The notes under the pieces were generated by a model that was not told where the DNA came from, searched no databases, and worked only from the letters and a program-made list of their open reading frames with translations. A stretch of 64,000 nt of DNA from Nitrospirota bacterium (GTDB lineage: Bacteria; Nitrospirota; UBA9217): the NCBI GenBank assembly GCA_020052615.1, contig JAGVOT010000052.1:1-64000 (forward strand), in the 5' to 3' direction. The translations under genes and the position numbers were made by a program. Shown one piece after another: positions 729 through 23,016 of this stretch (the stretch's first letter is position 1; each line of letters begins with the position of its first letter).

Positions 729-868
729 GGTATTTCTCCCTCCGGTCAGTCGTAGATCAGTCGTGAGACAACTGTGATTACAAATATACTCGCAAACATT
801 AAGATGTCAAGAGAGCGCAACGAACCATGTATCTATGCCATTTCACAAGGCGCGATGGTTTCATACAA

Positions 869-913
869 ATGTAACCTGCGCGTAATGATCCTGTAATACT
901 CCCGGCGTAGCAT
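869..913 (+). promoter_or_regulatory. Pho box and promoter of the phosphite operon
   Basis: Three half-sites at 11-base steps: atgtaac (869-875), gcgtaat (880-886), ctgtaat (891-897). A -10-like tagcat lies at 908-913, 10 bases after the last half-site. The array replaces a -35 box, as in PhoB-dependent class II promoters. The untranslated leader to ptxA would be about 60 bases. Confidence 0.8.
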
Positions 914-980
914 CTGATCATCGTAAATCGTTCAGGAACGTCAACGACATCCGCCGGCGCGCGAACAGGGGGCAAGCGTT

Positions 981-1823
981 ATGATCACTTTGGAGAATAT
1001 AAGCGTAACCTACCCCGGCGGGATCAGGGCGCTCCATCCCACATCGGTCCGATTCGAGCAGGGGCAGTTCACCGTGCTGCTGGGACCATCAGGGGCGGGA
1101 AAGTCGACCTTGCTCCGGAGCATCAATCACCTCTGCACCCCGACGACCGGGACGGTAGGTGTCGATGGTCTCGGTCCGCTTTCCGATGGGAAGGTCCTTC
1201 GTGAAGCCCGTCGCCGGACGGGAATGATCTTTCAGCATCATCAGCTGCTCGGCCGGTTGACCGCCCTCAGTAATGTGATCGTCGGTCGACTTGGCTACCA
1301 TACGACGTTGCGCAGTCTCCTGCCCCTTCCCCATTGTGAACTCGTCATCGGCCTGGAAAGCCTCGACCGTGTCGGACTGCTGCACAAAGCATTGGAGCGG
1401 GCAGACGCATTGAGCGGCGGCGAACAGCAGCGGGTCGGCATAGCACGGGCGCTTGCCCAGCGGCCGCAGCTTATTCTCGCCGACGAGCCCGTTGCCAGCC
1501 TGGACCCCGCAACGTCCGCCAAGGTGCTGTCCCTGCTCTATTCGATCTGCGAGCAGGAGAACATCACGGCGATCGTCAGCCTGCACCAGGTGGAACTGGC
1601 ACGAACCTTTGCCGACCGTGTCCTCGGCGTTTCGCGGGGAAGGATCGTATTCGACGGCGGGCCCGGGGACCTGACACCGGACGCGCTGAACGTTATCTAC
1701 GGCACCCTGGTCCCAAAGAGCGGGAACGATGCATGCGTCGGAGCAGCGGCAAACGCCGCATCCGATCATACGCCGGTCCCGATGCCATTTATTTATCCTG
1801 ACACAGGAGGTCAAACAGTATGA
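981..1823 (+). CDS. ptxA: Phosphite/phosphonate ABC transporter ATP-binding protein
   Basis: ATPase subunit of a PhnC/PtxA-type importer, powering uptake of phosphite (or phosphonate) across the inner membrane. Walker [10 protein letters not shown] lies at residues 35-43, the Q-loop glutamine at 85, signature LSGGE at 144-148, Walker B LILADEP at 164-170 and the H-loop histidine at 202. The length of 280 aa fits the family, with a short divergent C-terminal tail. Its last four bases overlap the start of the binding-protein gene (ATGA), so translation is probably coupled. The neighbouring ptxD argues for phosphite as the main substrate, but the sequence alone cannot exclude phosphonates. Confidence 0.92.
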
Positions 1824-2683
1824 AACGGATATTCCTTGTTCTTCTCATGGTGTGCCTGGGCTTCGGCATTGTTCACCACGCGGGGGCGGCCGGCAATCCC
1901 GACCCGAATACCCTGAAGGTCGCGCTGCTTCCGGACGAAAACGCGTCAACGGTGATCAAGAACAACGAAGGCCTCAAAAAGTATCTCGAAGCGCAGTTGG
2001 GCAGGAAGATCGAACTGGTGGTCACCACCGATTACAGCTCCATGATCGAGGCCATGCGCCACGGACGCATCGACCTGGCCTATTTCGGGCCGCTTTCCTA
2101 TGTTCTCGCGCGGTCGAAAAGCGAGATCGAGGCCTTTGCGGCCATGAAGAAGAAGGGCAGCACGACCTACCAGGGGGTCATCATCGCCAACACGTCGGCG
2201 GGGATAACTTCCCTGGCCGATATCGCGGGCAAGGACATGGCGTTCGGCGATACGGCGTCCACGTCGAGCCACCTGATCCCGAAATCCATGCTTAAGGAAA
2301 AGGGCCTGGAAGCGAAACGCGATTACCGGGAGCATTTTCTCGGCGCCCATGACGCCGTGGCGATCTCGGTCCAGAACGGCAAGGCGCAGGCGGGCGGCCT
2401 GAGCAAGCCGATCTTCGAATCGCTCGTGCAGCGGAACATCATCGATCCCGCGAAGGTGAAGGTCATCGCCGAATCCAGGCAGTACCCCGAGTATCCCTGG
2501 TCCATGCGCTCGGACCTCTCGCCGGCATTGAAAGTGAAGATCCGCAGCGCCTTCATCAACCTGACGGACAAGGACGTCCTGAAAGCATTCAAGGCCGACG
2601 GCTTCGGGCCCATGGCGGACAAGGATTACGACGTCATCCGGGACCTGGCGCGCATTCTGAACCTCGATCTGGCAAAGTTGTAG
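1820..2683 (+). CDS. ptxB: Periplasmic phosphite/phosphonate-binding protein
   Basis: Solute-binding component of the PtxB/PhnD family (287 aa). A Sec signal peptide with an Ala-Gly-Ala-type cleavage site near residue 24 sends it to the periplasm. Ligand-binding features of the family are visible: the tyrosine/serine segment [20 protein letters not shown] near residues 70-89, and the Ser/Thr-rich oxyanion loop [12 protein letters not shown] near 145. A strong ribosome site (caggagg) precedes the start, which overlaps ptxA by four bases. The permease gene follows after 7 bases. PtxB-type and PhnD-type proteins differ in ligand choice, and the call of phosphite rests on the operon partner ptxD. 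Confidence 0.9.
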
Positions 2684-2690
2684 GGGCATT

Positions 2691-20643: not shown

Positions 20644-21486
20644 ATGGACATCGAACAAAAACGCAAAATCGAGAGCATTGTCGCCCTTGTCTTCAGTACG
20701 CTGGCGGCCTTCGCGGGCCTGTTCTGGCTCGTCTTCATCCTGGGCGACGTCATCGTCCACGGCATCGGCGCGCTCAAGCTCAGCCTGTTCTTCAACGATC
20801 CTGTCCCCGCGGGCATGGCCGGAGGAGGCCTCAGGCATGCCATGGTCGGCCAGCTGATGACCACCTTCTTCGCGACGCTCATCGGCGTTCCCGTCGGCGT
20901 CCTGGGGGGCACGTTCCTCGCCGAGTATGCCCGGCGGACGAAATACGCCCGGGTGATCAGCGTCCTGGCGGACATCATCGTGAGCGTTCCGTCGATCGTC
21001 ATCGGCACGTTCATCTACGCCATCATGGTGAGGCCCCTGGGGCACTTCAGCGGCTGGGCGGGATCGGTCGCCCTCTCGCTGATCATGATCCCGGTGGTCC
21101 TGAGGACGACGGAAGACATGCTGTCCATGGTGCCGTGGACACTGCGGGAAGCGGCCTTCGCCCTCGGGGCGCCGTACTACAAGGTCATCATCCAGGTCGT
21201 CTACCGGGGCGCCGCGACCGGCATCCTGACCGGCATCCTGCTCTCCATCGCGCGGGTGGCCGGTGAGACGGCCCCGCTCATGTTCACTTCGTTCAATAAT
21301 AATTTCTTCTCCTGGGACATGAGCAGACCCATGGCCTCGCTGACCGTCACGATATTCCAGTACGCCATGGGGCCGTACGACGACTGGCACCAGCAGGCCT
21401 GGGCCGCCTCCTTTGTCATCACGGTGTTCATCCTCATTCTGACGCTCCTGGGCAGATTCGTCCTCAAGTGGAGGTTCAAGCAGTGA
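20644..21486 (+). CDS. pstA: Phosphate ABC transporter permease PstA
   Basis: Second permease subunit of the Pst importer, 280 aa with six predicted spans. The family signature [18 protein letters not shown] and the loop [16 protein letters not shown] are visible, as is [15 protein letters not shown] near the end. The start is ATG 20644 after a short gap filled by a repeat element. Its stop overlaps the pstB start (GTGA), indicating coupled translation. Functions as a heterodimer with PstC. Confidence 0.94.
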
Positions 21487-22247
21487 CGCTCGACATCGAA
21501 TTTTCGGTCAAGAACCTGGATTTCTTTTATAACGGCGATAACCATGCGCTGAAAGACGTTACCCTGCCCATTCACCGCAACCAGGTCACCGCGTTGATCG
21601 GGCCGTCGGGCTGCGGCAAGACCACCCTGCTCCGGTGCTTCAACCGCATGCACGACCTCTACCCGCGCCACCGCTATGAAGGGGAGATCATCTTCGAGGA
21701 CAGGAACATCCTGGCTGACGATGTGGACCTGATCAAGCTCCGGAGCCGCATCGGGATGGTCTTCCAGAAACCCACGCCGTTCCCCATGTCCATCGCCGAG
21801 AACATCGCCTACGGCCTCCGACTTAAAGGCGTGCGCAACAAGAGCGAACTGACCGGGCGGATCGAACAGGCGCTCAAGAACGCAGCGCTCTGGGAAGAGG
21901 TGCGCGACAAAATGAACGCCAATGCCTATGACCTGTCGGGAGGGCAGCAGCAGCGGCTGGTCATTGCCCGGGCGCTTGCCGTGGAGCCCGAGGTGCTGCT
22001 CTTCGACGAGCCGACATCGGCTCTCGATCCCATTTCCACGGCAAAGATCGAGGAGCTGGTGGTCACCCTGAAGAAGCACATTACCATCATCATCGTCACC
22101 CATAACATGCAGCAGGCGGCCCGGGTCTCCGACATGACGGGATTCATGTACCTCGGCGAACTCATCGAGTTCGGCTCGACGGAGAAGATCTTCACCGCTC
22201 CGGAAAAGAAGCAGACCGACGATTACATCACGGGAAGGTTCGGGTAG
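21483..22247 (+). CDS. pstB: Phosphate ABC transporter ATP-binding protein PstB
   Basis: ATPase of the Pst phosphate importer, 254 aa. Walker [10 protein letters not shown] is at residues 40-48, signature LSGGQQQR in the middle, Walker [13 protein letters not shown] and the H-loop in IVTHNMQQ. I chose the GTG at 21483, which overlaps the pstA stop and has ggagg seven bases upstream; a second GTG at 21468 is possible. Also takes part in phosphate signalling with PhoU in known systems. Confidence 0.95.
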
Positions 22248-22250
22248 AAG

Positions 22251-22320
22251 CAGTGCAAAGTGCGGATGCGAAGTGCGACGTATAGATCCATTGAATCTTG
22301 AATGTTGAATTTTGAATTCT
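22251..22320. repeat. Word-repeat sequence between pstB and phoU
   Basis: cagtgcaaagtgcggatgcg (22251-22270), then aagtgcg, words of the gtgcggagtgcgg family seen at 39602, 50269 and 54194, followed by ttgaatcttgaatgttgaat (22291-22310) type tandem words. It fills most of the 88-base gap. Confidence 0.65.
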
Positions 22321-22335
22321 CCGAAGGAGATCACC

Positions 22336-23016
22336 ATGGCACGCAAACTGGAGCATGACCTGTCAGACCTGAAGGACCGGGTCCTCAGGATGGGAAGCCT
22401 TGTAGAGGAAGCCATCCGCAAATCCATCAAAGCCCTGGTGGACCGGGACCGGGACCTGGCGCTTGCCGTGATCGACGGTGATGCGGTCATCAATACCCAT
22501 GATGTAGAGATCGAGGAGGAGTGCATCCGCCTGCTCGCCATCTGGCAGCCGACAGGCAGCAACCTCCGCTTCATCACCACGGCCATCAAGATCATCACGG
22601 ACCTGGAGCGCATGGGCGACCTGGCCGTGGACATCTGCGAGCGAACGATCGAACTCATGGATGAACCGCAGCTCAAGCCCTACATCGACATCCCGCGCAT
22701 GGCGGAGGCCTCCCAGAAGATGCTGAAGGAAAGCCTTGACGCCTTCGTGGAAAAAGACGCCGACCTGGCGGTCAAAGTCTGCGCTGCCGACGACTTCGTA
22801 GACAACCTGAACCAGCAGATCTTCAACGAACTGCTCGTGTACATGCTGCAGGACCCCAAGAACATCGGCCGCGCCGTGCGCCTCACCTACGTCGCCAAGT
22901 ACCTGGAGCGGGTCGGCGATCATGCAACCAACATCGCCGAGATGGTCGTCTACATGGTGAAGGGCAAGGTCATCCGCCACATGGCGTGCGAGATACGGGA
23001 GCCTGAAGCCAAATGA
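22336..23016 (+). CDS. phoU: Phosphate-signalling regulator PhoU
   Basis: Negative regulator that links the Pst transporter to the phosphate-sensing kinase; 226 aa, two tandem three-helix PhoU domains. Each carries the acidic metal-binding pattern: DRDRDLALAVIDGDAVIN with ERMGDLAVDICER in the first, and KDADLAVKVCAADD with ERVGDHATNIAE in the second. An aaggag ribosome site precedes ATG 22336. Last gene of the pst operon. Confidence 0.95.
   Translation: MARKLEHDLSDLKDRVLRMGSLVEEAIRKSIKALVDRDRDLALAVIDGDAVINTHDVEIEEECIRLLAIWQPTGSNLRFITTAIKIITDLERMGDLAVDICERTIELMDEPQLKPYIDIPRMAEASQKMLKESLDAFVEKDADLAVKVCAADDFVDNLNQQIFNELLVYMLQDPKNIGRAVRLTYVAKYLERVGDHATNIAEMVVYMVKGKVIRHMACEIREPEAK

Follow-up and report, generated by a model that had tools for sequence, protein, structure and literature searches.

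The first 23 kb of the stretch of DNA analysed here (64,000 nucleotides (nt) of contig JAGVOT010000052.1, from an uncultured Nitrospirota bacterium; the whole stretch is called the window) form an island with six promoters that carry tandem Pho-box arrays. In these arrays, 7-base half-sites are repeated at steps of 11 bases, and a -10 hexamer position follows at a fixed distance. The six arrays are very probably PhoB operators, which would switch on the whole island at low phosphate. Sequence and conservation together support a real, phylum-wide PhoB-type regulon of the kind known from Escherichia coli. The less expected, novel content of this regulon is an array-controlled operon composed of a PHP-domain phosphoesterase gene and a GT21 glycosyltransferase gene, usually located next to a gene for a GH1 beta-glycosidase.

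Array promoters of the island

The half-site rule NNN-T-[AC]-A-[TC], with a step of 11, was applied to both strands of the window. Runs of at least three half-sites start at 858, 5932, 7830, 9273 and 14517 (four units each), 18334 (three) and 60507 (three). An earlier note on this DNA, made from the sequence alone, had described six arrays; the rescan returned all of them, together with the unrelated run at 60507. The island contains 23 strict half-sites and not the 21 counted in that note, because the two arrays placed there at 869 and 5943 start one unit earlier, at 858 and 5932.

All six arrays are on the forward strand. The ptxABCD promoter (858-897) contains GTTTCAT, ATGTAAC, GCGTAAT and CTGTAAT, with the -10 TAGCAT at 908-913. 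The psiE promoter (5932-5971) is composed of CCGTCAC, ACTTAAC, CTGTAAC and CTGTAAT, followed by the -10-like CAGTAT at 5982-5987. The array upstream of the porin gene (7830-7869; TTGTAAC, TCTTCAC, CTGTCAT, CCGTAAC) precedes TATCCT at 7880-7885, and that of the operon containing the PHP, GT21 and OlsF-like genes (9273-9312; TCGTAAC, TCTTCAC, CCGTAAT, CTGTAAT) precedes TATCAT at 9323-9328. The signalling-operon promoter (14517-14556) carries CGGTCAC, ATTTCAT, CTGTAAT and CTGTAAC, with TACTCT at 14567-14572. The pst promoter (18334-18362) shows three strict units, TATTAAC, TTGTAAC and TTGTAAC, with TATAAC at 18373-18378 and a degenerate fourth unit at 18323. All had been described as intergenic, which does not hold for the array at 7830, whose first half-site contains the stop codon of the GH1 gene.

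The hexamer had been reported to start exactly 10 bases after the array in five of the six cases. This distance is in fact kept in all six, and the hexamer begins with TA in five; the psiE hexamer CAGTAT lies at the correct distance from its array but is a weak -10. The same geometry is found in a wider collection of 96 distinct arrays: TANNNT begins 10 nt past the array in 61 of them, and in at most nine at any other offset. The promoter-proximal half-sites, CTGTAAC or CTGTAAT, are strict, and the distal ones lean to TTTTAAC or ATTTCAT.

Several results show that these arrays are not random. Five runs of four half-sites occur in the window at step 11 and none at steps 7-10 or 12-22; in a Markov simulation of the window, the expected numbers are 0.017 for runs of four and 0.17 for runs of at least three. 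The spacers between half-sites vary in sequence. A weight matrix was built from 21 PHP-gene promoters of other Nitrospirota families, none of them from the family of the window; since the training arrays had been chosen with the half-site rule, the matrix independently tests the place of the arrays and their flanking bases, not the core. Its top eight matches in the window are the six arrays (858, 5932, 7830, 9273, 14517 and 18323), two of which are matched a second time in a shifted register. The arrays score between 14.6 and 44.2 (38.2 for ptxABCD, 44.2 for the PHP operon), the next unrelated site scores 0.1, and none of about 7.7 million simulated positions reached the threshold of 8. Matches to many unrelated promoters had been named as evidence that would speak against a Pho-box interpretation; no unrelated promoter of the window was matched.

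Search of the whole genome

The genome is a draft of 4.0 Mb in 135 contigs, 97.8% complete, and was examined by pattern searches, a whole-genome scan being among the checks that the earlier note had proposed. A pattern of four units plus the -10, with up to two mismatches, found the six promoters of the island and, beyond them, two chance-like matches (on contigs C76 and C85). A looser three-unit pattern gave 23 matches, 11 of them inside the island, and its reversed control gave six. A pattern of two half-sites is too weak by itself (19 matches versus 14 for the reversed control). As the pattern search adds only chance-like matches, the convincing array promoters of this genome are all confined to one 23-kb stretch.

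Three candidates were rejected as Pho boxes (C29:877-913, C76:110053 and window 60507). Their cores fit, but the -10 is misspaced or absent or the score falls below the matrix threshold. The run at 60507-60535, possibly an 11-bp minisatellite, is formed by three CTGTCAT/CAGTCAT units in 11-bp steps. It lies where a glycerophosphodiester phosphodiesterase gene begins and is oriented away from this gene. A longer, related CAGTCAT run is present in the congener G001 (C21:9685-9781).

Conservation of the arrays in Nitrospirota

Among 296 Nitrospirota genomes surveyed, the full pattern of array and -10 is present in 115, and the reversed control pattern in two. In a set of 61 relatives, four-unit arrays were found in 39, versus eight for the reversed control. 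Within the family of the window, fetched regions show arrays upstream of psiE, GH1/porin, PHP-GT21, the receiver-kinase operon and pst. For instance, the psiE gene of the congener G002 is preceded by a near-identical copy of the psiE array, and the array of the signalling operon is kept in G002, G006, G009 and G012. G002 also has a five-unit array upstream of a PhoX alkaline phosphatase gene. In other families (e.g., G026, G049, G055 and G059), arrays precede PHP-GT21 and pst, and in G115, G071, G086 and G212 they precede ptx.

The earlier note had taken the array upstream of pstSCAB-phoU as the one that identifies the family of arrays, and had advised a comparison with pst and phoB of related genomes. 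Both points were borne out: arrays precede pst here and in many Nitrospirota, and in 13 relatives (G004, G005, G006, G008, G009, G010, G025, G033, G041, G042, G048, G049 and G054) the distance between a phoB homologue and a four-unit array is about 7 kb or less, and the two often diverge directly.

The PHP-GT21 operon and associated genes

The PHP-domain phosphoesterase gene (9336-10028, forward strand, as are all genes of the island; PF02811) is related to Thermotoga TM0559 (2anu, 216 bits), an uncharacterised protein that is its nearest solved relative. Its start codon, previously placed at 9318, is likely at 9336. Residues H7, H9, D14, H39, E90, H137, D190 and H192, which are of the metal-ligand type of PHP domains, are invariant in 30 sequences, and the glycosyltransferase motifs of the GT21 protein are also invariant. 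In the window, the AUG is located 7 nt past the -10 (9323-9338). Of 26 loci, 17 have a distance of 7-9 nt, from which a leaderless mRNA is predicted, and the other nine one of 36-88 nt.

The GT21 gene (10039-11277; PF13506, 4.6e-45) codes for a ceramide-glucosyltransferase-like protein, whose closest solved relatives are ceramide glucosyltransferases (146 bits). It is followed by a gene for an OlsF-like bifunctional acyltransferase of the ornithine/amino-acid lipid synthase type (11328-13178). The match of this protein spans almost the entire NF052615 model, with 381.9 bits against a cut-off of 620; owing to this score it is labelled only as OlsF-like, and the head group used may be ornithine, glycine or another one. 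A scan of named genomes found a single relative, in Nitrospirae bacterium GWC2_57_9. The GH1 beta-glycosidase gene (6546-7835; PF00232, 5.9e-81) is probably cotranscribed with psiE. The best solved relative of its product is 1vff, an enzyme of Pyrococcus that is active on alkyl glucosides; this would fit a glycolipid substrate. A literature search for an SFR2-like role of GH1 returned nothing on bacteria.

The PHP protein is present in 54 of the 296 Nitrospirota genomes, and no plasmid record encodes it. GT21 follows PHP in all 30 loci examined, and a run of at least three strict half-sites lies just upstream of PHP in 27 of these. In larger fetched regions, the remaining three loci and the sole three-unit one score 40-45 with the matrix. 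GH1 is immediately upstream of PHP in 20 of the 25 loci with enough sequence. In G008 (L117:3274-5703, G008:C21), a gene for an 810-amino acid protein, in which a PHP-associated region is fused to a GT4 glycosyltransferase, lies directly downstream of a four-unit array.

We infer that the PHP-GT21 pair probably makes phosphorus-free membrane lipids. A more detailed scheme can be advanced only tentatively, with rather less than an even chance of being right: GH1-PHP-GT21 may be a Nitrospirota-wide, PhoB-controlled lipid-remodelling module, of an origin independent of PlcP-Agt. PHP would free phosphate and diacylglycerol from a phospholipid (or dephosphorylate phosphatidate), GT21 would glycosylate the diacylglycerol, and GH1 would trim or transglycosylate the resulting glycolipid. 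In many species the PHP transcript would be leaderless, its start codon lying 7-9 nt from a PhoB-dependent -10.

Phosphate, phosphite, porin and signalling genes

The ptxABCD operon (981-4596) consists of PhnC/PtxA (981-1823), PtxB (1820-2683), PhnE/PtxC (2691-3500) and the phosphite dehydrogenase PtxD (3523-4596). The PhnC and PhnE models of NCBIfam exceeded their cut-offs. PtxD matches the solved phosphite dehydrogenase 6ih2 with 441 bits, while the closest glyoxylate reductase reaches 203, and the solved PtxB 5o2j is matched by PtxB with 346 bits. Both are homologues of solved proteins, and the earlier reading of phosphite oxidation is correct. The operon is followed by the genes for the PsiE family protein (5988-6491; PF06146, 4.7e-11) and, beyond GH1, an outer-membrane porin (7955-9106; PF13609, 1.1e-41).

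Downstream of the OlsF-like gene lies a gene for a HATPase-only histidine-kinase-like protein (13354-14226; PF02518). The signalling operon (14574-18285) was annotated with Pfam and comprises a receiver-histidine kinase (14574-15770), a histidine kinase (15758-16945), a receiver (16948-17328) and a HATPase protein (17707-18285). An apparent remnant of a second receiver gene is visible at 17362-17565, and G012 has two tandem receiver genes at the corresponding spot. In the pstSCAB-phoU operon (18428-23016), PstS and PhoU score above their NCBIfam cut-offs, PstC, PstB and PhoU have Pfam matches, and pstA was assigned from its position and by tblastn to relatives.

The candidate regulator and alternative explanations

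Only three winged-helix response-regulator matches were found in the genome: a PhoB-like protein, a KdpE-like protein and a marginal one. The PhoB-like protein (L025) has TIGR02154 as its best model (277.6 bits). Its gene adjoins one for a PhoR-like kinase, with the PnpS and PhoR models among the best, and both are located on contig C73, outside the island.

The mechanism that we propose follows that of E. coli. At low phosphate, PhoR would phosphorylate PhoB, which would then line up head to tail on the 11-bp half-sites, all on the same face of the helix. Of these, the promoter-proximal pair CTGTAAC/CTGTAAT would replace the -35 and recruit sigma-70 RNA polymerase to the -10 that lies ten bases further down, and the two outer, weaker half-sites (TTTTAAC/ATTTCAT) would supply cooperativity. 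Joint induction would cover phosphate uptake with PhoU feedback, phosphite import and oxidation, the porin, PsiE, the kinases and receivers, and the candidate genes for phosphorus-free lipids, i.e., the PHP phosphoesterase, GT21, GH1 and the OlsF-like acyltransferase.

Several observations weigh against this interpretation. The score of the PhoB-like protein is under the NCBIfam PhoB cut-off of 296.2. Unlike in E. coli, no Pho-box array lies upstream of phoB (L025, upstream of 4442), so there is no sign of autoregulation. The earlier note had regarded loss of the repeats in close relatives as evidence that would refute its proposal: they are kept at psiE, GH1/porin, PHP-GT21, the signalling operon, pst and ptx, but at pst the picture is mixed. 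The pst promoter of G001, a genome of the same genus that has neither PHP nor OlsF, has lost all but the two proximal half-sites, which keep their 10-nt distance to TATAAA, and no clear pst array was seen in G003, G007 and G034. The link of the signalling proteins and of GH1 to phosphate is putative. Finally, in a draft of 135 contigs some array sites may be missing.

The island might also be a recently acquired horizontal cassette and not a native regulon, which we consider unlikely. The ptxABCD genes are indeed patchy, with a strong PtxD match in eight of the 296 genomes, and in the window they lie between two identical 98-nt repeats (3-100 and 4953-5050). The contig begins inside the first of these, where the assembly probably broke. 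However, pst, PHP, GT21, GH1, the arrays and PhoB are found widely across the phylum. Moreover, in G002 (L129, G002:C515, reverse strand near 1160-970) the ptx array and a 3' stub of ptxD remain while ptxABC and most of ptxD are gone, which points to loss and not gain in that genome.

There is even less room for another OmpR-family regulator, KdpE or an unrecognised one, acting through the same arrays in a different stress. OmpR-family regulators often bind direct repeats, and the island encodes histidine kinases and receivers of its own, but these receivers have no DNA-binding domain. The genome holds a single PhoB-like regulator, the second winged-helix match being KdpE and the third marginal, and the arrays precede pst, ptx and phoX and adjoin phoB.

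A similarly low probability is given to the possibility that GT21 is HpnI-like and modifies hopanoids, in which case PHP-GT21 would not serve the synthesis of phosphorus-free lipids. HpnI is the best NCBIfam model for GT21, but the score of 257.8 bits is below the cut-off of 310, and no squalene-hopene cyclase above cut-off was found in 20 of 22 PHP-carrying genomes, including that of the window and the single-contig G026 and G059. With no such cyclase in the window genome, hopanoid modification by GT21 was rejected for it.

It is highly improbable that the repeats arose by chance or form a local minisatellite, with no regulatory role: an unrelated 11-bp run does exist at 60507 and a related one is expanded in G001, but the array spacers differ in sequence, neither the simulation nor the reversed-pattern controls reproduce the arrays, and distant families keep them at the exact -10 distance.

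Comparison with known systems

The arrays resemble those of the E. coli PhoB/PhoR regulon in their 11-bp direct repeats, their CTGTCAT/CTGTAAT-like core, their end 10 bp before the -10 and their presumed control of pst and psiE. The E. coli Pho regulon also controls porin and phosphonate/phosphite uptake (phn) genes, whose counterparts are preceded by arrays here. In contrast to E. coli, there are typically four half-sites with the consensus CTGTAAC, the array promoters are grouped in one island, phoB has no array, and the targets include PHP-GT21, GH1, the OlsF-like gene and kinases. Pho-box units of 11 nt, formed by seven conserved positions plus four, have been described (PMC4415409), and in E. 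coli 10 bp separate the PhoB box from a downstream -10 of the form TAN3T/A (PMC1906773). The number of four units is not new, since four tandem Pho boxes were reported for Synechocystis phoA-nucH (PMC1906773).

Many Nitrospirota are uncultured bacteria of the subsurface or the nitrogen cycle, and little is known of their phosphorus biology. A near-background-free sequence rule for Pho promoters (115 of 296 genomes versus two in the control) makes phosphate-starvation genes readable from genomes alone and also shows where phosphite is used. As in known PtxABCD systems, the binding protein, permease, ATPase and NAD-dependent phosphite dehydrogenase are encoded in a single operon; the differences are the Nitrospirota host, the four-unit array upstream, the patchy distribution and the deletion in the congener G002.

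With respect to lipids, the homologues of olsF and agt in Desulfovibrio alaskensis are important when phosphate is low (PMC5193443). The protein encoded in the island shares with the OlsF ornithine lipid synthase the fused acyltransferase and GNAT architecture, but it reaches 382 bits against the cut-off of 620. Processive GT21 glycolipid synthases (Pgt) of Mesorhizobium and Agrobacterium are reported to form glycolipids when phosphate is lacking (PMC8231724 and references therein); the GT21 of the island belongs to the same family but is paired with PHP and GH1.

In marine bacteria, the PlcP phosphoesterase makes diacylglycerol for a glycosyltransferase (GTcp) under phosphorus stress (PMC8231724). 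By analogy, we propose that the PHP-GT21 operon may do the job of the PlcP-glycosyltransferase lipid-remodelling operon. The likeness is one of layout, in which the gene of a metal-dependent phosphoesterase precedes that of a lipid-type glycosyltransferase; the enzymes fall outside the PlcP-Agt definition, the phosphoesterase being a PHP protein (PF02811) and not a calcineurin-type metallophosphoesterase, and the glycosyltransferase belonging to GT21 (PF13506) and not to GT4. With this proposal, a crystallised and so far uncharacterised PHP family (TM0559/2anu) would gain a concrete, testable role in membrane-lipid replacement.

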